A DNA stretch of 64,000 nucleotides, from positions 3,472,001 to 3,536,000 of the forward strand of contig NZ_CP097263.1 in assembly GCF_028622115.1 (NCBI RefSeq), in the 5' to 3' direction. The notes beneath the pieces were generated by a model. It had not been told where the DNA came from. It made no database searches and saw only the letters and a program-made list of their open reading frames with translations. Every line of letters begins with the position of its first letter. Positions within the stretch are counted from its first letter, which is position 1. This DNA is from Kutzneria chonburiensis (GTDB lineage: Bacteria; Actinomycetota; Actinomycetes; Mycobacteriales; Pseudonocardiaceae). Shown in pieces: positions 2,417 to 38,032 of the stretch. Position numbers and translations under genes: made by a program.

Positions 2417-3471
2417 CGCGAGATCCGGTTCAGCAGGCGGCCGAGCTGCCGGCGTTCCCAGAACGCCGGCTCTTCCTCGACCGGGGCCGGCGCGCGCACG
2501 ACCACCAGCCGCGGCGGCGGGGCTACGGCCGGGGCAGGAGGTGGTGGTTCGACCGGAGTCGGCTCGGGCGTCACGGGTGCGGCCGCGGCCGGCCGTACGT
2601 AGGGGGCGTCGAAGACCGGGACGTCCACCGGGCGGCGGACGGGTCGGTGCGGCGGCGTGTTCGGCGCGTCGACCGACCGCACGACAACCGGCTGCACGGT
2701 CGATCGCTTTCGCACCGGCACGGCCCGAGCGCGCTCCGGCACCACACGAACAGGTTCCTGGAGAGCATGAATCGGCTCCTGGAGAGCACGAGCAGGCTCC
2801 GGCGCGGAGGGCGTAGTCTCCAACCAGTCCACAGTGGATGGTACGGTCCATTGTGGAGCAGTGTCGACAATCGCGGCCGGCGAGCGCTTGACCGCCGACG
2901 GAGTCTCCACCGGCATCGCAACGGTCACGACTTCCGGCTCGACGGCGGCGCCGGGCTGTGCCACCGGCTGTGCCACCACAGGCGCCGGAACAGTCTGCGG
3001 CGCTTGGCTTTCCATCGCGCGCAGCACCGACGCGGCCTGGGGTGCTCGAACTTCCTCCGAAGGAGGAAAGACTGCCGGCGGACGAGCTACTTCGGGTCGC
3101 CGGACAGTGGGCTCCGGCGGCAGCACGACCTCGGTCACCAGCGAGCTCGGCACGGCCGTGACCAGAGGCTCGTCCAGGAACACCGGCTCGGGCGCTGCTG
3201 CCCGAACGGGCGCGGGGGCCGCGACGACATCGACGTCGTCGACTTCGAAGTTGTCGGTCTCGGCCAACCAGCCCGGCATGTCGGCGAAACCCTGCGGCCG
3301 CGGGGCGGCCGCCCGCACGTACCGAAAGCCACCGCGTGGCAGCGTCGACGGAAAGCTGATCCGCACGCCGTTGTCCTCCGGCGCGCCCAGCAGCTCGCGT
3401 ACCCCGGCGCGGTAGTGGAAAGGCCGTGCGCCGTCGGCCAGGACGCCGCGCAGGAAACCGTCAGGCGCCAT
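2413..3471 (-). CDS. Proline-rich, largely disordered injection-system protein
   Basis: A 352-residue protein starting at the ATG at 3471, inside the last codons of the preceding gene (11-base overlap). The first ~75 residues look ordered (FRYVRAAAPRPQG ends this part). The rest is dominated by Pro, Ala, Val and Glu with no predicted fold, including short near-repeats such as ALQEPIHALQEPVRVVPE. The last ~25 residues (FWERRQLGRLLNRIS) could form a helix. I do not recognise a named family. Its position between the gp26-like and DUF4255 genes suggests a structural accessory or scaffold. Long Pro-rich linkers are also known in tape-measure-like and cargo proteins, but nothing here proves either role. 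Confidence 0.7.
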   Translation of the reverse strand: MAPDGFLRGVLADGARPFHYRAGVRELLGAPEDNGVRISFPSTLPRGGFRYVRAAAPRPQGFADMPGWLAETDNFEVDDVDVVAAPAPVRAAAPEPVFLDEPLVTAVPSSLVTEVVLPPEPTVRRPEVARPPAVFPPSEEVRAPQAASVLRAMESQAPQTVPAPVVAQPVAQPGAAVEPEVVTVAMPVETPSAVKRSPAAIVDTAPQWTVPSTVDWLETTPSAPEPARALQEPIHALQEPVRVVPERARAVPVRKRSTVQPVVVRSVDAPNTPPHRPVRRPVDVPVFDAPYVRPAAAAPVTPEPTPVEPPPPAPAVAPPPRLVVVRAPAPVEEEPAFWERRQLGRLLNRISR

Positions 3472-4315
3472 GGTTGAGCACCTCGATCGCATCGGCGAGC
3501 ACGTCGATGTACGTCTGCCGCTTGTCGCGCGTCATCGCCATGATCTCGCTCTCGCTCCAGTGGTAGTGGTAGGCCAGGTAGTGCACTTCCTGGTACAGCA
3601 GGGTGTTGTCGGTGCGGAGCTCGCCGAACACGAAGCGGTGGATGTCGAACGGCGCGACGAACGTCCGTCCGCACTCGGCGCAGGCCGCGGCGAGGGTCTG
3701 CTCGACCTTCGGCGCGGCCCGCCGCATCCGCTCCTCGATCTCCAGCCGGGTGATCGCCGGCAGGGCGGCGATCCGCTCCGCATCCGGTCGCGCCCCACCG
3801 AGATCGAGCACGCACCGCGCCAGCAGCGCGGTCAACGCCTCGGCCTCGTTGACCGCGAGCCGCCCGGACAGCTCCTCCTGGTCGGCCCCGGTCGGCAGCC
3901 GGAAGGTGATCTCCTGGCCGTCCTTGAGGGTCTCCGTGTAGTGCGGCGCGCGGTGCGGCGGCGGCTCCACCGGCACGGCGTCGATGGAGAAGTCCACCGA
4001 CATCCGCTCGCCGCACTCCGTCCACGGGCAGGTCAGGGTGGCCCGGACCTGGTCCCCGAAGGTCGCCCGCCGCAGCTGGAGCAGCAGGTGGTTGCGGTCG
4101 GCGACGAGCAGCTGCCGGGTCACCGCCGGGGGCACCGGGCTGATGTCGCCCAGCCGGGAAACGCAACGGCTGAGCACCTCGGTCACCAGGGCCGCCGGCC
4201 GGGCGGCGGCCCGCGCGGCCAGCAGCTCCTCCTCCCGACCGGTCAGCGGGGCCAGGTCGAACTCGCGGTGCAGACCGCCGTGCTCGTCCCAGAAGCCACC
4301 CGGCAGCAGGCCCAT
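3461..4315 (-). CDS. T4 gp26-like baseplate/tail assembly protein with zinc-ribbon cysteines
   Basis: A 284-residue protein. Its ATG at 4315 shares one base with the stop of the tube gene. The fold resembles the T4 baseplate hub assembly chaperone group (gp26-like) seen next to tube genes in contractile particles. Cysteines occur as C-x4-C (CPWTEC) and later C-x2-C (CAEC), which could hold one zinc. The C-terminal third is helical, with a conserved-looking HYLAYHYHWSESEIMAM stretch typical of this group. No signal peptide or membrane segment is seen, as expected for a cytoplasmic assembly factor. Confidence 0.7.
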   Translation of the reverse strand: MGLLPGGFWDEHGGLHREFDLAPLTGREEELLAARAAARPAALVTEVLSRCVSRLGDISPVPPAVTRQLLVADRNHLLLQLRRATFGDQVRATLTCPWTECGERMSVDFSIDAVPVEPPPHRAPHYTETLKDGQEITFRLPTGADQEELSGRLAVNEAEALTALLARCVLDLGGARPDAERIAALPAITRLEIEERMRRAAPKVEQTLAAACAECGRTFVAPFDIHRFVFGELRTDNTLLYQEVHYLAYHYHWSESEIMAMTRDKRQTYIDVLADAIEVLNHGA

Positions 4316-4815
4316 CAGCTCTCCTTGAGCTCGATCACCGACGTGTCGCGCACCCAGCCCTCGTTCTCCAGCTTGATGGTGCTGATCATCACCGCGTTGC
4401 CGCCGGCGTCGAGCTGCGGCAGCGCCTGGTACTCCGACACCCAGCAGCGGTAGACGTTGTAGCCCAACACCTTCTGCCCGCCGAGGTTGTAGACCTCGAT
4501 GGAGATGTCCTTGCGGAATCCGGCCAGCGACATGGCCGCGTCGCCCTGGAAGTTGTTGACCTTGCCGGCCCAGTCCTCGAAGGTGGTGTCGTGGGTGACA
4601 CCGGCCTCAAGGGTGATCGGGTCGTACTTGGTCTTGCCGGGGATCTGGTGCGGTCCGGCGGCGTCGCCGCCCTCGTACCAGGAGGTGACCTCGGTGGACT
4701 TCTTCAGCGCGCTGCACTTGTTCAGGCCGGCCACGTACAGGCCGTCCACCTTGATCTTGAACCGGAACCCCAGGTAGGGGTCGAACCGGGTGGTGTTGAC
4801 TGAGAACTTCGCCAT
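4315..4815 (-). CDS. Phage tail tube protein (T4 gp19-like), injection-system inner tube
   Basis: A 166-residue protein, the normal size for contractile-particle tube subunits. The start at 4815 has a strong ribosome site (AAAGGAGC) about 8 bases upstream. Signature features are the early FRFKIKVDGLYVAG, the KTKYDPITLEAGVT strand pair and a C-terminal KLENEGW, all typical of gp19/Hcp-like tube proteins. The product should form the hexameric inner tube inside the sheath. It follows the sheath gene with a 23-base gap and precedes the gp26-like gene, the usual order. Confidence 0.93.
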   Translation of the reverse strand: MAKFSVNTTRFDPYLGFRFKIKVDGLYVAGLNKCSALKKSTEVTSWYEGGDAAGPHQIPGKTKYDPITLEAGVTHDTTFEDWAGKVNNFQGDAAMSLAGFRKDISIEVYNLGGQKVLGYNVYRCWVSEYQALPQLDAGGNAVMISTIKLENEGWVRDTSVIELKES

Positions 4816-4838
4816 CTGGCCGTGCTCCTTTCGAATCG

Positions 4839-6770
4839 TTACGACGCGAGTCCGGCCTGCTGGCTGATCTTGACCACGACGAACTCGGCCGGCTTCAGCG
4901 GCGCGAAGCCGACCTGCACGTTGACCACGCCGTTGTCGATGTCGGCCTGGGTGGTGGTCTCCGCGTCGCACTTGACGAAGAACGCCTGCGACGGCGTGGC
5001 GCCCTGGAACGCGCCCTGACGGAACAGCGTGGTCATGAACGACCCGATGCTCAGCCGCAGCTGCGCCCACAGCGACTCGTCGTTGGGCTCGAACACCGCC
5101 CACTGGATGCCGTTGTAGATGCTGACCCGCAGCATGATGGCGGTGCGGCGGACCGGGACGTAGCGCCACAGCGGGTCGGACGAGATGGTGCGTGCGCCGA
5201 AGGACACGATGCCGGAGCCGGCGAAGCGCCGGACCACGTTGATGCCCTTGGGGTTCAGGTTGCCGTGGTCGACATCGGACAGTTCGGCGGTCAGGCCGAC
5301 CACGCCGTTGAGGCTGGCCTCGGTGCCGGCCGGGGCCTTCCACACGCCGCGGGCCGAGTCGGTGCGGGCGTAGAGCCCGGCGACGTAGCCGGACGGCGGC
5401 AACAGGATCGGGTCCCGGGACCGGCCCGTCGGGTCGGTCGCCTTGACCCACGGGAAGTACACGGCCCCATAGGAATTCGCCGTGGTCAGCTTGTTGCGGA
5501 AGGTGGTCGCGTCGGACACCTCGTCGTCGAGCTGACCGGTCTCGCCGATGTAGAACATGTCCTGCAGCGGCCGGTTGGCGCAGTAGCCCATGCCCTTGTC
5601 GGCCATGGCCGGGGTGGCTTCGCCCGGCACCGCGAGCAGGCTGACGTCGGTGAGGTGGTCGAGCTTGGCGAACCCGTCGGCGAACAGCTGCTCGGTGAAG
5701 GTCGCGACGCCGTCCGCGCCGGCGTGCGCCGCGGACACCGGCGCGGCCACGGCCGAATCGCCGACCTGGATCACGGGGGCGTTGACCGGGCGGCGCACCG
5801 CGATGCCGTTCTCCGAGCGGCCACCGCCGGCGAGGCCCAGCTTGAGCTGGAACGACGCGTCGTTCGTGGTCGCGGCCTGCACCAGCACCGAGGACGCCGG
5901 GTTGGCCGCCGTGCCCGACTGCAGCAGCAGGTTCGGGCCGGCCGGGTCGACCGTGCAGGTGAAGCCGGTGAACGCGGTCGCGTCGGTGGACGTCTTCTTC
6001 TTGACCAGTGCCTTGACCGCGGTCTGGATCGCCGCCGCGACGTCGGCCAGCGCCGTCGCGGTGCCGGTCGCCGGCGGCAGCGCCACCTGCTGGTAGCCGT
6101 CACCATCCACATTGATCTGGAAGTTGAGGTTGCTGTTGAGCGGCAGCGTCGGGCCGGCGGCGCCGCGGTGCAGGCCGCGCTGGATGCTGGTGTTGGCGGC
6201 CAACAGCTGCGCGTTGACCAACGTGGAGCGAGAGCCGAGCACGCTCACCGCGTAGTCGGGCGAAGTCGGGTCGACGCTGAGGTTGTCGAACACCTCCAGC
6301 GGAGGCAGGTCCTGCGGGCTGGCCGGCACCACGGCCGGGTCGTCCTGCCGGCGGATGCTCAGCTTGAACGTGTTGCCGGGGTCCAGCGTGCCGTCCTCGA
6401 CCTGGAGCAGCAACGTGTTGCCCCACAGGCCCTTGTTCTTGGCGCTGAAGGTGAATCCGTTGACGCCGACGCGGTTGTTGAGCGACACGTCGGCGGCCAC
6501 GGCGTCGCCGCGGGTGACCCGCACGATGTAGCACTGGCGGCCGCCGTTGTTGAAGTACTGGAACACGCTCTGCGCGAGATAGCCGTCGTCGGTGAAGGAA
6601 CCGTAGCGGCGCTGGAAGTCCGTCCAGCTGGTCACGAGGGTGGCCTCGGTGTCCGGCCCCATCTCGGCCAGCCCGACAAACGCGGCCGTCGACGTGCTGG
6701 CGGTGTCCAGCGGTCGCACGCCGCCGGACACCTCCTGGACGTAGACACCCGGATAGCTCACGGTCGCCAT
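4839..6770 (-). CDS. Contractile tail sheath protein
   Basis: A 643-residue protein starting at the ATG at 6770. It opens with the hallmark YPGVYVQEVSGGVRP of sheath subunits, the N-terminal strand that links neighbouring subunits. A variable middle domain of about 350 residues follows (roughly 110-400). The conserved C-terminal domain includes INVVRRFAGSGIVSFGART, a nearby LWRYVPVRRTAIMLR, and a final VQVGFAPLKPAEFVVVKI. At ~640 residues it is at the long end for sheaths because of the middle insertion. The sheath contracts around the tube to drive puncture. Sheath followed by tube is the core of all contractile injection systems. Confidence 0.95.
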   Translation of the reverse strand: MATVSYPGVYVQEVSGGVRPLDTASTSTAAFVGLAEMGPDTEATLVTSWTDFQRRYGSFTDDGYLAQSVFQYFNNGGRQCYIVRVTRGDAVAADVSLNNRVGVNGFTFSAKNKGLWGNTLLLQVEDGTLDPGNTFKLSIRRQDDPAVVPASPQDLPPLEVFDNLSVDPTSPDYAVSVLGSRSTLVNAQLLAANTSIQRGLHRGAAGPTLPLNSNLNFQINVDGDGYQQVALPPATGTATALADVAAAIQTAVKALVKKKTSTDATAFTGFTCTVDPAGPNLLLQSGTAANPASSVLVQAATTNDASFQLKLGLAGGGRSENGIAVRRPVNAPVIQVGDSAVAAPVSAAHAGADGVATFTEQLFADGFAKLDHLTDVSLLAVPGEATPAMADKGMGYCANRPLQDMFYIGETGQLDDEVSDATTFRNKLTTANSYGAVYFPWVKATDPTGRSRDPILLPPSGYVAGLYARTDSARGVWKAPAGTEASLNGVVGLTAELSDVDHGNLNPKGINVVRRFAGSGIVSFGARTISSDPLWRYVPVRRTAIMLRVSIYNGIQWAVFEPNDESLWAQLRLSIGSFMTTLFRQGAFQGATPSQAFFVKCDAETTTQADIDNGVVNVQVGFAPLKPAEFVVVKISQQAGLAS

Positions 6771-30511: not shown

Positions 30512-33500
30512 TCACGCTCGGCAGGGCGGGTCGTAGGGCAACGTGGGCAGGTACCGCCACCACTGGCCCTCGGTGACCGAATCCGTGGTCCCGCAGATCC
30601 GCGACACCGCGTGCTGCACGTCGAGGTCGAGCAGCCGCACGGTGTCGGCATCGTCGGACACGGCCAGGTACTGGCCACCAGGGCTGTAGGTCAACCCGGC
30701 GCCACGGCTGGTCAACGCGGCCATCGGAGCGCCGAAAGCGGTGCGCCGGCCGACGTCCCAGAAGCGAATGGTCTGATCGGTGCTCCCACTGACCAAGGTC
30801 CGGCCGTCGGGACTGAAGGCGACGGTCGACACGGAACGAGTGTGCCCGGGCATCACGGCGGCGGCCCGGGCGGCGACGTCCCACAGCCGCACGGTCTGGT
30901 CGGACCCGGCGGAGGCGAGGGTCCGGCCGTCGGGCGAGAAGGCGATGGTCACGACGTTGCTGGAGTTGCCCCTGAGCTGCCCGGCGGCCCGAGGGGAAGA
31001 CCGGACGGAGACGTCCCAGAGCCGAATGCTGTGATCACTGTCCACAGTGGCCAACGTCCGGCCGTCGGGACTGAAGACGACGGCGTTCCCGCCGATCTCG
31101 CCGGTGATCCGACCGACGACGACCGGGGTTCGAGGATCGGTGACGTCCCACAGCTGAATGCCGTGCTGGTCGTCGGGCAACGCCATGGTCCGCCCGTCGG
31201 GGCTCAAAGCGAAGGCGGCGCGGTACGGAGTCCTGGTCCTCAGGCCGTCACCGAGCGGCGCGGGCTGCTCAGGGTTGCCGATGTCCCAGAACCGCAACAC
31301 CTTGGCCTGACTCAAGACGGCCAGCGTGCGACCGTCGGGACTGATCTCGATGTCGGTGCAGCTGGCGCTGCACGAAGCGACCTCGCCGGCCGGCGGCGGA
31401 ATCTCGGCCAGGAGGGAGGAATCCTCGACCCGCCACAAACGCACGACACCGTCAAGACCGCCGGTGGCGACGAGCTTCCCGTCGGCCCGAAAAGCGATGG
31501 CGTCAACAGTAGTGCGATGCCCGAGCAACACCCGACCGGGCAACGACCACAGCCTCACCACGCCGTCGGAACTGCCGGTGACCACACGATTGTCGTCGGG
31601 CGCAAAGGACACCGTATAGACGTCGCCGCCGGCGTTGGCCCGCGACAACAACGCCGGGTGCGCCACATCGGCGACGTTCCACAGCCCGGCGGTGCCGTCG
31701 GCGCTGCCGGTGGCCAGCATGGAGCCGTCGTGGCTGAACTCCACCGACCACACGCCGGAACTGTGCTCGGTGAGCGGTGCCCCGACCGCAGCCCCGGTGC
31801 CGACGTCCCAGATCCGCACGGCGCCGTCCTGCCCGCCGGACACGACATAGCGGCTGTCGGGACTGAACGTCACGGAATGGACGAGCAAGTTGTTGCCGGT
31901 CAAGGGATTCCCGACGGCGACGGGATGCTCGACGTCCTGGATGTTCCACACCCGCACGGTCTTGTCCTCGCCACCGGACGCGAGCAACCGCCCGTCACCG
32001 CTGAAGGCCACCGACCGCACGGCCTGGGTGTGCCCGCGAAGCACGCCGAGCGACCGGGGATGCGCGGGGTCCGCGACGTTCCACAGCCCCACGGTGCCGT
32101 CGTTGTCGGCGGTGGCCAGCAGCCGGCCGTCGGGACTGAACGCCAGCAGGGACACGCTGCCGCCGACGGCGGGGATGGCCGCCCCGAAACGCTTGGGCGC
32201 CCGGGCATCGGCGACGTTCCACAGCTGCACGCTGCCGGCCTGCCCGCTCGTCGCCAGCACCCGGCCGACCGGGCTGAACACGGCGGCGCTGACCCAGCCG
32301 TGCTGGTCGCCGGGCATGGACGCCAGCAGCGCGGGCCGAGCCGGATCCCACAGCCGGAACGTGTCGTCGTTGCCGGCGGTGGCCAACACCTCGCCGTCCG
32401 GACTGAACGACGTCCAGTAGACGTTGCCGTTGTGGTTGCCGATGGTCTGCGCCAGGTTGGCGGTCTGCGTGCTGAGCAGCCGGGTGCGCACGGAGTCGTC
32501 CCCGGGCCGCATTCGCCACGCGACCATGGCCAGCTGCGCCGACAACGCTGGATCCCGGTCGCGCAGCCAGTCCGACTCGGCCAGTACCTGCTGGAACTGC
32601 GCGTCGTCCCGTTGTTTCAACGCCGTGGTGCGTTCATTGCCGGCAACCACGGCGGCGACGGCGGCGACGATCGCGAACACGACAACGGCAGCCATCAGGA
32701 CCCGCAGCCGCTTGGTCCGCCGCCGGGCCGCCGCCAGCTCGGCTTCCCGGCCGAGCTCGCTGGCGTCCAGGAACTCGCCTTCCCGTGCCGACGGCGAGGC
32801 CGCGGCCCGCCACAGCAGCGCCTGCTCCAGCCGGGCCCCGCGGTAGAGCGCCGAGGGATCACGGTCCATGGCCTCCCACGCGGCGGTCGCCTCGGTCAGC
32901 GCCCGGTGGATCCGCAGGCCCTCACGGTCCTCGGACAGCCACCGCCGCAGCCGCGGCCAGCTGCGGATCAGCGCCTCGTGAGTGATCTCCACCGACTCCC
33001 GGTCGGCCACCACCAGCCGCGCGTCGACCAGCTGCGTGATCACGTCGTCGACGCCGGGATCGAGCTCGGACCGCGGCACCCGCCGCCGCGTGTCCTCTGT
33101 GCCCTCGCCCAGCACGCACAGCCGTACGAACAGGTCCCGAGCGGTCAGCTGCTGTGGCTCGGTGAACCCGTCGAACACCGTGTCGGCCGTCCGCGCCAGG
33201 GCATGCGCGATGCCGCCGGCGCTCTGATAGCCGGCCAGCGTGAGCTTGGCACCGGCCCGGCGGCGCCACGTCTCCAGGAGCGCGTGCGACAGCAGCGGCA
33301 GGATCCCGGGCCGTCCCGACGCCTCGGACATCAACGTGGCTAGCAGCGCCCCCTCGACGGCACAGTTGGCCCGCGCGGCCGGCGCGACGATGGCGCGGCG
33401 CAACTCGTCCATCGTCATCGGCCCCACGGTGACCTGCGCGTCCTGCATGGCAGCGACCAGACCTGGGTGCTGCGCACAGTGCGGGTAGAAGTCCGCCCGG

Positions 33501-34156
33501 ACGCCGATCACCACGCGGTACGGGGCGTCGAGCAGCGCGGCGATGAACCGCTCCCGCTCGGCCTCGTCGCCGCAGAGCGTGAACAGCTCCTCGAACTGGT
33601 CGACGACAACCACATCCGCGGCGACGCCGTCGAGCGCGGCCATCGGCCGGCCGCCGGGCGTGATCAGGGCGGTTCGGCCGGACAACGCCGGGATCAGGCC
33701 GGCCCGCAGCGCCGACGACTTGCCCGACCCGGACGGGCCGAACACGGCGGTGAAGCGCTGTCGCCGGACCCGCTCGGCGAGGTCGGCGACAAGGTGCTCG
33801 CGGCCGACGAACCGGTCGGCGTCGGCGATGTCGTAGCTGGCCAGCCCGACGTACGGGGCGTTGGCGTCGTCCGGTATTTCCGGAGAGATCTCCGCTGCCG
33901 CCCGCACGGCATGCCAGCGTTGTTCCCACTCCTCGACGTTGCCGTCACACCCCCGGACATAGGCCAGGGTCACGGCCAGGCTGGGAAGGCGCTTTCCGCC
34001 GGCCGCGTCGGACAACGTGGTTGACGAGAAATGCGCCCGCGCGGCCAGTTCCCGATAGGTCGGGCGACCGGCCAGCTCACGGAGTTTCCGCAGCTCGGCC
34101 GCGAATTCGGACAGCGCGGAGCCGTCCAGGTCGAGCGGTTGTTCAGCACGCGGCAT
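30512..34156 (-). CDS. XRE-STAND ATPase with 14 WD40 repeats, membrane-anchored
   Basis: A 1214-residue protein. XRE-like helix-turn-helix (about 12-85). nSTAND ATPase (about 110-430) with Walker A FGPSGSGKSSALR and Walker B VVVVDQFEELF. A single membrane helix at about 497-517 follows a basic stretch. Then 14 WD40 repeats I can count (from VYWTSFSPDGEVLATAG to the last YSPGGQYLAVSDDAD), enough for two seven-bladed propellers. STAND proteins switch on by ATP binding and oligomerise. In actinobacteria this arrangement is common but its signals are mostly unknown. The propeller is probably extracellular and the HTH/ATPase cytoplasmic. Confidence 0.92.
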   Translation of the reverse strand: MPRAEQPLDLDGSALSEFAAELRKLRELAGRPTYRELAARAHFSSTTLSDAAGGKRLPSLAVTLAYVRGCDGNVEEWEQRWHAVRAAAEISPEIPDDANAPYVGLASYDIADADRFVGREHLVADLAERVRRQRFTAVFGPSGSGKSSALRAGLIPALSGRTALITPGGRPMAALDGVAADVVVVDQFEELFTLCGDEAERERFIAALLDAPYRVVIGVRADFYPHCAQHPGLVAAMQDAQVTVGPMTMDELRRAIVAPAARANCAVEGALLATLMSEASGRPGILPLLSHALLETWRRRAGAKLTLAGYQSAGGIAHALARTADTVFDGFTEPQQLTARDLFVRLCVLGEGTEDTRRRVPRSELDPGVDDVITQLVDARLVVADRESVEITHEALIRSWPRLRRWLSEDREGLRIHRALTEATAAWEAMDRDPSALYRGARLEQALLWRAAASPSAREGEFLDASELGREAELAAARRRTKRLRVLMAAVVVFAIVAAVAAVVAGNERTTALKQRDDAQFQQVLAESDWLRDRDPALSAQLAMVAWRMRPGDDSVRTRLLSTQTANLAQTIGNHNGNVYWTSFSPDGEVLATAGNDDTFRLWDPARPALLASMPGDQHGWVSAAVFSPVGRVLATSGQAGSVQLWNVADARAPKRFGAAIPAVGGSVSLLAFSPDGRLLATADNDGTVGLWNVADPAHPRSLGVLRGHTQAVRSVAFSGDGRLLASGGEDKTVRVWNIQDVEHPVAVGNPLTGNNLLVHSVTFSPDSRYVVSGGQDGAVRIWDVGTGAAVGAPLTEHSSGVWSVEFSHDGSMLATGSADGTAGLWNVADVAHPALLSRANAGGDVYTVSFAPDDNRVVTGSSDGVVRLWSLPGRVLLGHRTTVDAIAFRADGKLVATGGLDGVVRLWRVEDSSLLAEIPPPAGEVASCSASCTDIEISPDGRTLAVLSQAKVLRFWDIGNPEQPAPLGDGLRTRTPYRAAFALSPDGRTMALPDDQHGIQLWDVTDPRTPVVVGRITGEIGGNAVVFSPDGRTLATVDSDHSIRLWDVSVRSSPRAAGQLRGNSSNVVTIAFSPDGRTLASAGSDQTVRLWDVAARAAAVMPGHTRSVSTVAFSPDGRTLVSGSTDQTIRFWDVGRRTAFGAPMAALTSRGAGLTYSPGGQYLAVSDDADTVRLLDLDVQHAVSRICGTTDSVTEGQWWRYLPTLPYDPPCRA

Positions 34157-34315: not shown

Positions 34316-35320
34316 ATGCACAAACGCGTTGCTGTGCTCGCGACCGCCATGCTCGCGCTGGGGGTCGGTACCGCGGTTCCCGCCGCGGCCGCAGCCCAAA
34401 CCTGCACCTGGCAGGTGTCCAAGGTGTCGACACCGGCCGGCTATCTCGAGCGGTCGACCACCGTCACCGGCACCGACAGCCACGGCAACTACTCCGGCAC
34501 GACCGGGAGCGTGGCCACCGACGCGGCGATCCCGCTGGTGTGGACCAACGGCCGGCCGCGGGTCGCCGACGAGCTGAGCGACTTCACGTATCCGCAGGTC
34601 GTGGACGAGAATTCGCACGGCACCATCCTGGTGTCCGGCACGCAGCGCGGCACCGGCCGCAGCGGCGCGTTCCTGTTCACCAACGCCCACAGCGGCCACG
34701 GCACGCTCACCAACCTGCCGACGCCGGCCGGCTACGCGACCGACTACGCGGTCGCGCTCAACGAGCGTGGCGACGTGCTGGCCCGCGGCCACGCCGTGAA
34801 GGACGGCCACGAGGTCTCGCTGTACTGGTCCACGCTGGCCGCCGCACCGATCGTCATCGACACCCCGTACGGCAGCGGCGTCGACCTGGACGACGACGGC
34901 ACCGTGCTGCTCTACGACGGCGCGGACAACCCGGCGCACCTGTGGCGCCACGGCCAGATCGTCCCGGTGGCCGCCGACTTCCCGACGCTGTTCCGGGCCA
35001 TCCGCAACGGCACGGTCATCGGCACCAAGGTCGAGTCGCCGTGGCCCGAGTCGCAATCCCTGCTGTGGCGTGAACCCGGCACCGCCCGGGCCATCGACAA
35101 CGGCGGCACCGCGCAGGCGATCAACGCCCGCGGCCTGATCGCCGGCAGCAAGGGCGCGCTGGTCGGCCCGCCGGCCGTCTGGTCCGGCACCACCTACCTG
35201 GCCGACCTGCCGCTGCCGGCCGGCATCACCGACGACAGCGACGTCTACGTCATCGGCGACGACAACACGATCTTCGGCCGGGTCTCCGACTACGGCCCGC
35301 TCCAGTGGAACTGCGCATGA
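34316..35320 (+). CDS. Secreted HAF-repeat-like beta-propeller protein
   Basis: A 334-residue protein. Signal peptide at about 1-27, then a repeating beta pattern with GTxxG and ALNxRGDVLARG-type turns reminiscent of HAF repeats. Two cysteines at the ends (TCTWQV, QWNCA) could close the ring by a disulfide (Velcro). No catalytic residues seen. Its stop overlaps an in-frame ATG of the next gene (ATGA at 35317), so it is co-translated with the propeller-CHAP enzyme. Function unknown; perhaps a ligand or partner of it. Confidence 0.8.
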   Translation: MHKRVAVLATAMLALGVGTAVPAAAAAQTCTWQVSKVSTPAGYLERSTTVTGTDSHGNYSGTTGSVATDAAIPLVWTNGRPRVADELSDFTYPQVVDENSHGTILVSGTQRGTGRSGAFLFTNAHSGHGTLTNLPTPAGYATDYAVALNERGDVLARGHAVKDGHEVSLYWSTLAAAPIVIDTPYGSGVDLDDDGTVLLYDGADNPAHLWRHGQIVPVAADFPTLFRAIRNGTVIGTKVESPWPESQSLLWREPGTARAIDNGGTAQAINARGLIAGSKGALVGPPAVWSGTTYLADLPLPAGITDDSDVYVIGDDNTIFGRVSDYGPLQWNCA

Positions 35321-35331
35321 AAGGCACAAGC

Positions 35332-36648
35332 ATGCCCGCACTGCTGCGACGGATGCGAGCGGCGACCGTCGCACTCGCCCTCGCGCTCGGCTGTGTCACG
35401 GCGGTCGCCGTGCCGGCCGGCCCGGTCGCCCACGCCGACGCGACCTGCACCGCCAACGTCTCGGTATACGGCGTGCTCGCCGACAACCGGCTGACGTACA
35501 CGTCCATCGATCCGGACAGCGGCAACATCCTGCACATCATCAGCTCGGCCGCGGCACTGCCGTTCACGGCCAGGGCGATGGCGACGCTGAACGGCAACAC
35601 CGTGCTCGTCACGTCCACTGCCGGCGATCTGTACCGGGTCGACGTGATCACGAACAACACCAGCCTCACCTTCGCCACCGCGAAGCTGCAGAGCGGCTGG
35701 ACCCACAACCTGCTGACCTACGACGGCCACGGCCACATCTACGGCACGACCACCGGCGGGCAGCTGCTCCAGTACCTGATGTCGGCCAAGGACGGCAAGC
35801 CGGGCGAGCTCCAGGTCGGCCAGCGGGTGGAGATCGGCAGCGGCGGCTTCTCCCTGAAGACGCTGGCCGCCGCGGCCGACGACCGGCTGATCGCCACCAC
35901 GTCGGACGGCCAGCTGCTCAGCTACGCGGTCAACGCCTCCGCCGGCTACACGCGGGCCCAGCTGGACAACGCCGGCTGGCAGAGCTTTGCGAACCTGGTC
36001 TCGCCGGGCGGCGGCCTGTACTACGGCAAGAACCCCGACGGTGCCATGTACTGGTACGAGGACGCCGACCCGACCGACGGCCGTGGCAACGACATCACGT
36101 ACCACCTGGACGACCCGGTGGCGTCCCGCGGCTGGACCCAGGTGCTGCTGTCGGCCGACCCGACCACGTGCACGACGAAGCCGGTGGTCAACCCGCTGCG
36201 CGGCAAGATCGTCGCCGCGGCGACCGGCGAGGTCGGCACCCTGGAGAAGGACTGCGACCGGTACAACACCGCCTGCAACGGCGGTGCCACCCCGTGGTGC
36301 GCCATGTTCGCGACCTGGGCGTGGTGGAAGGCCGGCGTCGCCGACGTGCCGCGCGGCACCCTGGCCGCCCGTGGCCTCGGCGAGTGGGGCGTCAACCACC
36401 ACCTGTTCAAGTCCCGTTCCAGCAGCACACACGGCAGCCCGAAGCCCGGTGACTGGGCCATCTACGGCCCGCCGGACGGCGTTTCCGGCGGCCATGTGGA
36501 CGTCGTGACGGCGGTGCACCCGGACGGGACGCTGACCGTGGTCGGCGGCAACGTCAGCAACGCGGTGAAGCAGCGCGTCATCGACCCCGACACCGCCGTC
36601 CAGAACGGCCATTCGATCTCGGGCTACGTCTCCCCGCCCGGGGCCTGA
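35332..36648 (+). CDS. Secreted tachylectin-like propeller fused to a CHAP amidase
   Basis: 438 residues from the ATG at 35332, which has GAAAGG 7 bases upstream; the coupled ATG at 35317 is also possible. Signal peptide (about 1-33). A propeller of the tachylectin-2 type (about 40-275) has repeated blades (LLTYDGHGHIYG, FANLVSPGGGLYYG). Then a CHAP domain (about 290-435) with its nucleophilic Cys in PWCAMFATWAW and His in GGHVDVVTAV. CHAP domains cut peptide cross-links or amide bonds of peptidoglycan; the propeller could bind amino-sugars. The next gene carries a closely similar propeller. Confidence 0.88.
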   Translation: MPALLRRMRAATVALALALGCVTAVAVPAGPVAHADATCTANVSVYGVLADNRLTYTSIDPDSGNILHIISSAAALPFTARAMATLNGNTVLVTSTAGDLYRVDVITNNTSLTFATAKLQSGWTHNLLTYDGHGHIYGTTTGGQLLQYLMSAKDGKPGELQVGQRVEIGSGGFSLKTLAAAADDRLIATTSDGQLLSYAVNASAGYTRAQLDNAGWQSFANLVSPGGGLYYGKNPDGAMYWYEDADPTDGRGNDITYHLDDPVASRGWTQVLLSADPTTCTTKPVVNPLRGKIVAAATGEVGTLEKDCDRYNTACNGGATPWCAMFATWAWWKAGVADVPRGTLAARGLGEWGVNHHLFKSRSSSTHGSPKPGDWAIYGPPDGVSGGHVDVVTAVHPDGTLTVVGGNVSNAVKQRVIDPDTAVQNGHSISGYVSPPGA

Positions 36649-36712
36649 AGCCAACTCTCCTGACGGCGTCGCGTCCCCAGGCGCGGCGCCGTCCCCCAAC
36701 CTGGAGTCCTCA

Positions 36713-38032
36713 GTGCGTTTCGCAGCAAGAACAATCGCCATCGCCGCGGCCGCCGTGACCGTGCTGACCGCCGGCGCCGCCCAGGCCGCCACCGATTCCG
36801 ACGACGCCGTCCGGGCCCGGGTCGCGCAGGTCGCCGCGTACGAGAAGGCCCCGTGCAACGGCGCGCCGACCTCGGCCGACAGCGCCGACGCGACCAAGCT
36901 CAACGGCGTGCTCACCCAGGGCCTGAAGGACTCGATGACCGCCTACCGCGTGTCGTGCGCCCGGGCCGTCATCGACGCCGTGCAGAAGCGCGGGCTGGAC
37001 GAGCGGGCCGCGGTCATCGCGATCACCACCACCATCGTCGAGTCGACCATCGAGAACATCAGCGAGAAGGTCGACCACAGCAGCCTCGGCCTGTTCCAGC
37101 AGCTCGACGACTATGGCACCGCGGCACAGCGGCTCAATCCGAGCTGGGCCACCAACGAGTTCCTCAACAGGATGGAGACCCGCTTCCCCAACGGGAGTTG
37201 GCGCACCGCCGACATCGGCGAAGTCTGCCAGCGGGTGCAGGTCTCGGCCTACCCCGACCGCTACGACAAGCAGACGTTGGACGCCCAGCGCATCGTGGAC
37301 GAGCTGAGCGGGCCCGGCGCGGTCACCGTGCAGATCTACGGCGCGCTGTCCGACGGCCGGCTGACCTACTCCACGATCAACTCGCAGACCGGCGACCGCA
37401 CCAAGACGCTGGCCTCATCGGCCTCGATCGGTTTCGTGCCGAAGACGTTGGCCGCGTTGAACTCCAACACGCTGCTGGTCACCTCGCCGGCCGGTCAGCT
37501 ATACCGAGTGGACATCGTTACCAACAAGAACTCGCTGACATTCTCCACGCTGACCCCGTTGGGCGGCGGCTGGACGCACGACATGCTGACCTACGACGGG
37601 CACGGGCATCTGTACGGCATCGCCGACGGCAAGCTGATCTCGTACGTGGTCTCCCGGCCCAAGCCGGCCGAGAGCCAGATCGGCGGGCGGGTCGAGATCG
37701 GCGCCGGCTTCACCATGCGCACCATCGCCGGCACCGGTGACGACTGGGTCCTCGGCATCAGCACCACCGGCGTGCTGCGGTCCTATCACGTCGCCGCCGA
37801 CTACAGCTGGACCGGCGTGACGTTGGCCGACCGGTGGAGCACCTTCGACCGCATTGTCTCGCCCGGTTACGGCCTGTACTACGCGCAGACCCGTGACGGC
37901 GCGCTGTACCGGTACTTCGACCACAACCCGTACGACCTCAACGGTTCCGACATCGAGGGCTTCGGAACCGACCCCGTCGACACCCACGGCTGGACCCAGA
38001 TCCAGCTCTCCGCCGTGCCGCTCGTCGGCTGA
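36713..38032 (+). CDS. Secreted lysozyme-like domain fused to the same propeller
   Basis: 439 residues from a GTG at 36713 (GGAG upstream), signal peptide about 1-25. Residues about 28-190 look like a transglycosylase/lysozyme-like fold: a helical part with a candidate catalytic Glu in TIVESTIENI and the typical SLGLFQQ. The C-terminal ~235 residues are a tachylectin-like propeller, very similar to that of the gene before (LLTYDGHGH, GWTHDMLTYDG versus GWTHNLLTYDG, RIVSPGYGLYY). The order is the reverse of the neighbour (enzyme first). Likely a secreted peptidoglycan glycan-strand hydrolase working with the CHAP protein. Confidence 0.85.
   Translation: MRFAARTIAIAAAAVTVLTAGAAQAATDSDDAVRARVAQVAAYEKAPCNGAPTSADSADATKLNGVLTQGLKDSMTAYRVSCARAVIDAVQKRGLDERAAVIAITTTIVESTIENISEKVDHSSLGLFQQLDDYGTAAQRLNPSWATNEFLNRMETRFPNGSWRTADIGEVCQRVQVSAYPDRYDKQTLDAQRIVDELSGPGAVTVQIYGALSDGRLTYSTINSQTGDRTKTLASSASIGFVPKTLAALNSNTLLVTSPAGQLYRVDIVTNKNSLTFSTLTPLGGGWTHDMLTYDGHGHLYGIADGKLISYVVSRPKPAESQIGGRVEIGAGFTMRTIAGTGDDWVLGISTTGVLRSYHVAADYSWTGVTLADRWSTFDRIVSPGYGLYYAQTRDGALYRYFDHNPYDLNGSDIEGFGTDPVDTHGWTQIQLSAVPLVG

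Follow-up and report, generated by a model that had tools for sequence, protein, structure and literature searches.

A propeller-CHAP and GH184-propeller gene pair in Kutzneria chonburiensis and the matching of putative binding modules on neighbouring, predicted wall-lytic enzymes

Why should two adjacent genes encode unrelated enzymes and yet carry the same type of beta-propeller, at opposite ends of their products? The question is raised by a locus of Kutzneria chonburiensis (NCBI RefSeq assembly GCF_028622115.1) within the window, the whole stretch of 64,000 nucleotides (nt) that was analysed (contig NZ_CP097263.1, positions 3,472,001 to 3,536,000). Three consecutive genes, here numbered 1 to 3 (Table 1), encode proteins with signal peptides that were read by eye off the translations. 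Gene 2 joins a tachylectin-like propeller to a CHAP domain, and gene 3 joins a GH184-type domain to a second such propeller. An earlier reading of the same DNA, the original prediction, saw here a dedicated two-cut peptidoglycan system with a common targeting module. We think it probable that the products of genes 2 and 3 lyse walls jointly by two different cuts, and that a matched lectin, itself exchangeable, docks both of them on the same surface glycan. The predicted domains, their catalytic residues, the adjacency of the genes and the matching of the modules can be read from the sequences, and the argument below is built on them.

Domains of the pair and its conservation

The propellers of genes 2 and 3 align clearly, with 47% identity across about 236 residues. 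This bears out the claim that two adjacent proteins share a closely similar tachylectin-like propeller, and disposes of the concern that detailed alignment might prove the propellers unrelated. The match of gene 2 to the Pfam family Tachylectin (PF14517) scores 45.5 bits against a cut-off of 29.8; that of gene 3 is borderline, falling just below this value in a protein scan (28.7 bits) and rising above it when the genome was searched (30.1 bits). The C-terminal part of gene 3 has a confident beta model, for which the best 50 Foldseek matches include PLL and tectonin lectin propellers, although 1tl2 is not among them. GW motifs are invariant at three sites in the gene 2 propeller and at two in that of gene 3. 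Tachylectin-2 itself binds N-acetylglucosamine (GlcNAc), according to passages of PMC4483166 and PMC4735018, and the two propellers of the pair are putative sugar-binding modules.

The two proteins carry their domains in reverse order, propeller-CHAP in gene 2 and lysozyme-like-propeller in gene 3, as originally proposed. In gene 2 both the Tachylectin and the CHAP matches lie above their Pfam cut-offs. The Cys, His and Asn of the CHAP domain, which we take to be its active-site residues, are invariant in an alignment of 13 sequences and in 18/18 sequences of a larger comparison. A phmmer search of gene 2 against the Protein Data Bank (PDB) gave one match only, at chance level.

For gene 3, phmmer matches the N-terminal part to two fungal GH184 muramidases of known structure: 8b2h, with E 2.2e-11, and 8b2e, with E 9.5e-7. 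Glu41 of the Kionochaeta enzyme, equivalent to Glu125 of T. terrestris 8b2h, is reported as essential in the available passages of Moroz et al. 2023 (PMC10394673), and it is with this Glu125 that Glu110 of gene 3 aligns. Among homologous domains the essential column is Glu in 59/59, and the accompanying Asp column is Asp in 51/59. The AlphaFold model of gene 3 is good in the propeller; the muramidase part is helical but poor near the active site, with segment 86-99 scoring under 50. The best 50 Foldseek rows for this model are dominated by propellers, which leaves the GH184 part without an informative fold match. A false resemblance was rejected on the GH184 match and the catalytic Glu, and the lysozyme-like part of the original prediction, for which loss of activity and fold had been named as the possible refutation, thus has a solved relative and keeps its essential residue. 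The domain is a GH184-type muramidase of predicted activity. According to the same passages, most fungal GH184 enzymes carry an SH3-like wall-binding domain that bacterial members lack; the T. terrestris domain can be aligned to gene 3, with the essential Glu and Asp kept, whereas gene 3 has a beta-propeller as its putative binding module, and the adjacent gene encodes a predicted peptide cutter that bears this module too. GH184-like domains also occur in actinophages, a possible source of the muramidase domain.

Table 1. Positions of the genes and domains discussed, numbered from the first letter of the window
Feature	Position	Strand	Remarks
Gene 1	34316..35320	+	334 aa beta-propeller of its own family; signal peptide by eye
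Gene 2	35317..36648	+	443 aa propeller-CHAP protein; signal peptide by eye
Propeller of gene 2, tachylectin-like	35449..36174	+	Pfam PF14517; boundaries from alignments
CHAP domain of gene 2	36187..36645	+	Pfam, 42.4 bits against a cut-off of 26
CHAP residues of gene 2	Cys codon 36298-36300, His codon 36493-36495, Asn codon 36550-36552	+	invariant columns
Gene 3	36713..38032	+	439 aa GH184-propeller protein; signal peptide by eye; GTG start, GGAG upstream
GH184-type muramidase domain of gene 3	36854..37312	+	predicted catalytic Glu110 codon 37040-37042, Asp121 codon 37073-37075
Propeller of gene 3, tachylectin-like	37313..38029	+	PF14517 borderline; 47% identical to the gene 2 propeller
Divergent neighbour, nSTAND1 NTPase with WD40 repeats	30512..34156	-	159 bp upstream of gene 1

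The pair is conserved as a cassette. When GTDB genomes were scanned with gene 3, 47 loci were found. Of these, 12 (L006-L017) match in the GH184 part, 34 (L018-L051) in the propeller only, and one (L052) is a fragment. All 12 GH184-part loci also have gene 2, placed upstream of gene 3 and co-oriented with it as in the window; gene 3 was the query, so only the presence of gene 2 counts as a test, and its presence at all 12 is above chance. The hosts are Kutzneria, Amycolatopsis, Kibdelosporangium, Actinoplanes and relatives, together with one record titled Rhodococcus rhodnii (L013; JOAA01000010.1). Spread to Rhodococcus was considered for this record and rejected: its sequence appears to belong to the window's family, in genus g27 with genome G147, and the record is apparently mislabelled.

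The original prediction had proposed searching genomes for tachylectin propellers near CHAP and lysozyme-like genes. In an even sample of 150 genomes of the family, searched with profiles of genes 2 and 3, the gene 2 profile finds any match in 14/150 and a full-length one in 6/150, and the gene 3 profile any match in 51/150 and a full-length one in the same 6. The two full-length proteins are adjacent in all six genomes; these genomes are related, and fewer than 6 independent events are therefore represented. Flanking genes are common within genera, but none is common across genera in the 14 tachylectin loci compared. In Paractinoplanes pyxinae a third tachylectin gene, NlpC-propeller, lies upstream of the CHAP/GH184 pair (L012:1441-2724).

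Matched modules on neighbouring enzymes

The pattern extends beyond tachylectin propellers. Two genomes of the family survey (G022 and G111) have CHAP next to GH184 and no tachylectin propeller; in their DNA (L063 and L064) both proteins share another propeller, 56-63% identical within the pair, which in L063 matches Pfam DUF346 and is PLL-like as read by eye. GH184 loci were therefore collected more widely, with matches at E up to 1e-35 in the 150-genome survey plus one weaker match of the window's own genome, and, from a class survey of 394 genomes, matches scoring 165 bits or more together with a single one at 124 bits, other class-survey matches under 125 bits being left out. Eight loci of the first scan were added and the duplicate contigs L006, L008, L013 and L014 omitted. 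The limit for a GH184 frame was 150 bits; L111 falls below it, and L075, taken for a propeller fragment, has no GH184 frame. The 59 GH184 frames above 150 bits comprise 42 with a C-terminal stretch of at least 130 residues and 17 without. Two of the 42 (L098 and L099) were dropped, their "module" being a fused NlpC-like domain, which leaves 40.

A neighbour that carries a matched module on a non-homologous enzyme is present for 38 of these 40 proteins (8/8 from the first scan, 30/32 from the surveys and the window). Most such neighbours lie within 100 nt on the same strand, although the gap is 147 nt in L016 and L082 has its partner in inverted orientation; where reading frames were over-long, some gaps show up as overlaps. 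Module identity within pairs ranges from 47 to 99.6%. Across loci, modules match in 343 of 1406 comparisons (24%), and random re-pairing of the 38 loci gives a mean of 10.0 and a maximum of 20 matches in 20,000 shuffles, against 38 observed. These figures rule out that matching is a by-product of one common module.

In 19 of 24 non-tachylectin pairs the GH184 module is closest to that of its own neighbour, the exceptions being L063, L064, L080, L081 and L096. Synonymous divergence (dS) of the modules is 0.006 in L101 and 0.009 in L103, and is very low also in L089; since the enzymes are unrelated and the module DNA is near-identical in L101 and L103, the module must have been copied or converted between genes. 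In the 15 NlpC-type pairs, modules co-vary across loci with a Mantel r of 0.99, against 0.45 for the catalytic domains; the 14 tachylectin loci give 0.91 for the former and 0.78 for the latter. These co-variation figures are indicative, the alignments of modules across unrelated propellers being rough. The seven genomes compared hold two or three GH184 pairs each, with modules 47-94% identical inside pairs and unrelated or weakly related between pairs of one genome, except in G006 (63-66%). The window's genome (G000) holds three pairs: that of the window, L068 and L069. An FG-GAP propeller in L067 (positions 3310-6077) has nearly identical repeats by eye, which suggests recent blade amplification.

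The partners are complementary in enzyme type. Of the 38, 35 could be typed and all are peptide cutters (18 CHAP, 15 NlpC/P60-like and 2 M23); untyped are L079 (M15-like by eye), L067 (cut by a contig end) and L076 (no enzyme domain found). Pfam backs CHAP for the window, L013, L063, L078 and L103, and M23 for L081; for NlpC/P60, L074 lies above the cut-off, L101 at it and L091 below. Cys and His are invariant in 15/15 NlpC-like partners. Module-free GH184 genes differ in this respect: none of 16 is adjoined by CHAP, NlpC/P60-like or M23, the only peptide cutters sought there, and the only hits nearby are about 4 kb away, in another pair (L087). The seventeenth module-free frame (L092) is cut by a contig end next to an NlpC-like gene. 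At three loci a GH43/GH32-like third gene carries a related module, 42-43% identical (L085:6098-8383, L095:1916-4165 and L096:5430-8243), hinting at a possible third, glycan-trimming member. In L098 (4264-5718, minus strand) and L099 (4350-6500, minus strand) GH184 is fused to the NlpC-like domain, which would place both cuts in one protein, and NlpC paralogues are adjacent.

A comparable arrangement, with another glycan cutter, is found in the propeller-only loci of the first scan, all but one of them titled Streptomyces. These 34 include 23 propeller-SLT genes paired with propeller-NlpC, two paired with propeller-CHAP and one paired with an untyped propeller gene. Typing was by similarity to representatives, among which SLT and NlpC/P60 fall below the Pfam cut-off and M23 above it; the SLT-type domain is above the cut-off for the NCBIfam model "aggregation-promoting factor C-terminal-like".

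Several observations weigh against two matched enzymes docked on one glycan. In the tachylectin pairs the GH184 module is closest to that of its own partner in 0/14, so the two propellers separated once and then descended in parallel; those of the window have long diverged separately, and their ligands might now differ. The GW pocket motifs of tachylectin-2 are only partly kept in genes 2 and 3. L084 and L102 have no matched neighbour, and no CHAP, NlpC/P60-like or M23 in the fetched stretch. Many loci are related, so the pair counts are not counts of independent events. The profiles behind the 35 typed partners were built from those partners themselves, and in four NlpC-like partners (L065, L066, L068 and L069) Pfam recognises no NlpC domain at E 0.1, although these proteins can be aligned with the others. 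The Streptomyces-type loci include seven lone propeller-M23 genes and one lone propeller-NlpC. No immunity gene was recognised among the flanking genes of 14 loci, none of which is common across genera, and immunity families of an unfamiliar kind would not be recognisable.

The reverse test adds to these points. The NlpC-like domain, searched in the same 150 genomes, matches in 55; the sample consisted of the 20 best module-bearing NlpC loci (frames of at least about 345 residues) not beside a long-form GH184, six matches in the same score range being left out for frames under about 340 residues, and it includes several loci from one genus, with four (L158-L161) from g8. A matched neighbour is present in 9/20, L159 has only a 41-residue match and 10/20 have none, so obligate pairing of every module-bearing peptidase is rejected. 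In favour of the paired action, all nine matched neighbours look like glycan cutters: GH25 (L152), a glucosaminidase (L158), GH75 (L147, L149, L153 and L154, where the shared module is PG_binding_1) and distant GH184-like proteins (L145, L146 and L150, with 44-59 bits to the GH184 profile and no Pfam enzyme match). GH75, which accounts for four of the nine, is named as a chitosanase and not as a peptidoglycan enzyme, a further point on the contrary side.

Action, target and alternative explanations

How might such a pair work? Both proteins would be secreted, and the common propeller would dock them on the same surface glycan. GH184 may then cut the glycan backbone of peptidoglycan while CHAP cuts the stem peptide or amide; jointly the two cuts would open the wall, whereas either alone would merely loosen it. 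The propeller would set the target and, when exchanged or homogenised in both genes jointly, would keep one address. Binding modules raise the local concentration of an enzyme, and glycan and peptide cutters synergise in other lysins. The proposed two-cut set with a common targeting module gains independent support from pairs built of other propellers and other enzymes; activity and binding are predictions from sequence.

It may be that these loci belong to an actinobacterial repertoire in which each adjacent pair links a glycan cutter to a peptide cutter through copies of a single lectin module, both being re-aimed together, with several addresses per genome; we consider the chances of this wider proposal evenly balanced. 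The glycan cutter would be GH184, SLT, GH25, glucosaminidase or GH75 and the peptide cutter CHAP, NlpC/P60 or M23, with the module replaced or gene-converted in both genes. One odd operon would thereby become a general and testable rule, that unrelated wall cutters are kept adjacent with the same changeable lectin. The rule predicts a function for many unannotated secreted actinobacterial proteins that occur in pairs. The pairs also offer natural matched enzyme sets for wall lysis, and a system for studying the co-exchange of binding modules between non-homologous genes.

As to the usual target, we lean towards a competitor or prey, because of the patchy presence of the pairs, the exchange of modules and the several modules per genome. 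The chief alternative is own-wall remodelling: the pair would loosen the wall of its producer when hyphae branch or when spores form or germinate, with the propeller recognising the wall polymer of that species. Wall polymers vary between species, which could drive module change, and the GH43/GH32-like third genes in L085, L095 and L096 could fit own walls that contain arabinose. Passages of PMC6833217 place an "amidase domain with Tachylectin 2" protein of Streptomyces lividans among measured secretory proteins, and passages of PMC5994538 describe an S. lividans tachylectin-2 protein as strongly transcribed (733 transcripts per million) and Sec-secreted; membership of a pair is in both cases judged by name only. 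However, the full window type is patchy (6/150 family genomes), its loci share no flanking gene across genera, and the three pairs of the window's genome have modules that are unrelated or barely related, where one own wall would not need three. Own-wall remodelling is possible but rather unlikely.

General scavenging, in which the pair digests dead bacterial or fungal walls for nutrients, aimed at no particular target, and the propeller is a broad GlcNAc binder, seems more doubtful still. The GlcNAc binding described for tachylectin-2 in parts of PMC4483166 and PMC4735018, the existence of pairs with the GH75 chitosanase and a trypsin-tachylectin protein encoded in the window's genome are all consistent with it, but broad binding needs neither the matching of modules inside pairs nor their difference between pairs. 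That adjacent genes share a module through tandem copying alone, with no functional meaning, is quite improbable: the very low module dS in L101, L103 and L089 does show recent copying, but the paired enzymes complement each other in class in the 35 typed GH184 cases and the nine reverse ones, old pairs (47-65% module identity) are still adjacent, and whole-gene duplication cannot yield such pairs, the catalytic domains being non-homologous. Least probable is a relic of phage lysins, with the GH184 part taken from actinophage tail lysozymes: gene 3 finds matches in 592 of 50,697 phage records, and the 20 listed are for the most part tape measure or minor tail proteins, 31-34% identical to it. 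However, none of the records covers as much as 80% of gene 3, a signal sequence can be read by eye in the products of both genes, the genes belong to a compact run, and the locus is intact and conserved in 14 loci with its active sites intact. A remote phage origin of the GH184 domain is compatible with a wall-lysing pair on a matched lectin.

Parts of this design are familiar. The pneumococcal choline-binding lysins and autolysins are alike in that a glycan cutter (the lysozyme Cpl-1) and an amide cutter (the amidase Pal) share a wall-binding module and act in synergy. In those lysins one module type serves one host, whereas here the module type varies by pair and the genes are adjacent; Pfam, with E values as high as 1 allowed, finds no choline-binding repeats in either gene of the pair. 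The endolysin PlyC serves two cutting activities with one binding unit that is a separate subunit, while in the window each enzyme has its own copy of the binder. According to passages of PMC10394673, gp13 of phi29 has two cutter-like domains in one polypeptide, the second LytM-like; the GH184-NlpC proteins of L098 and L099 are likewise built, and the window differs from both in that the cutters are split over two genes and joined by a common propeller.

That tachylectin-like propellers of bacteria can be linked to catalytic domains had been observed before (Pereira and Lupas 2021, PMC8023676); the passages available give neither enzyme names nor the matched two-gene layout. A search of titles and the opening parts of abstracts, with subscription papers and preprints outside its scope, found no published description of matched-module adjacent pairs, and the main text of a review of wall hydrolases (PMC6403190) contains no word beginning "propeller" or "lectin". 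The original remark, that no described system with this layout was known, holds for the literature searched but needs narrowing: wall lysins that share a binding module are known, and what appears to be undescribed is matched, exchangeable modules on adjacent complementary enzymes.

Gene 1 and the flanks

The third secreted propeller, described at first as translationally coupled before the pair, fares less evenly. The TGA of gene 1 overlaps the ATG of gene 2 (ATGA), and gene 3 begins 64 nt past gene 2. Gene 1 has no Pfam match above cut-off and no tachylectin match; its AlphaFold model is all-beta, with a predicted local distance difference test score (pLDDT) of 90.7, and its top structural matches in the PDB are mostly beta-propeller proteins, so the third propeller is real as a fold. 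Its membership of the tachylectin family is not detectable, and it stands beside the pair only in Kutzneria. Homologues occur in 5/7 genomes of the genus, close ones (68-100%) in three, where they adjoin the pair; the remaining ones (26-35% identity) are located away from it, and among L006-L017 gene 1 is present in L006 alone. The idea that gene 1 is a third component wherever the pair occurs was therefore rejected; it is a lineage addition in Kutzneria.

A scan of genes 1 to 3 against NCBIfam gave one match, below cut-off. A promoter scan gave 0 sites; 2 terminators were predicted, where shuffled sequence gives 1.4 on average. Gene 3 ends 3 nt short of the end of a convergent alpha/beta hydrolase gene. 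The host genome is 10.4 Mb, and the closest named relative in the genome scan is Kutzneria sp. 744, with 85% identity at gene 3.

The divergent nSTAND1 NTPase has an XRE-like N-terminus by eye and a relative at the same place in the Kutzneria locus L055; it is at most a candidate member of the system. Flanking frames are common to L073 and L077. About 40 kb from the pair, the same genome encodes the trypsin-tachylectin protein mentioned above (L001; G000:C1:3550213-3550926), and L002 is a second tachylectin protein.

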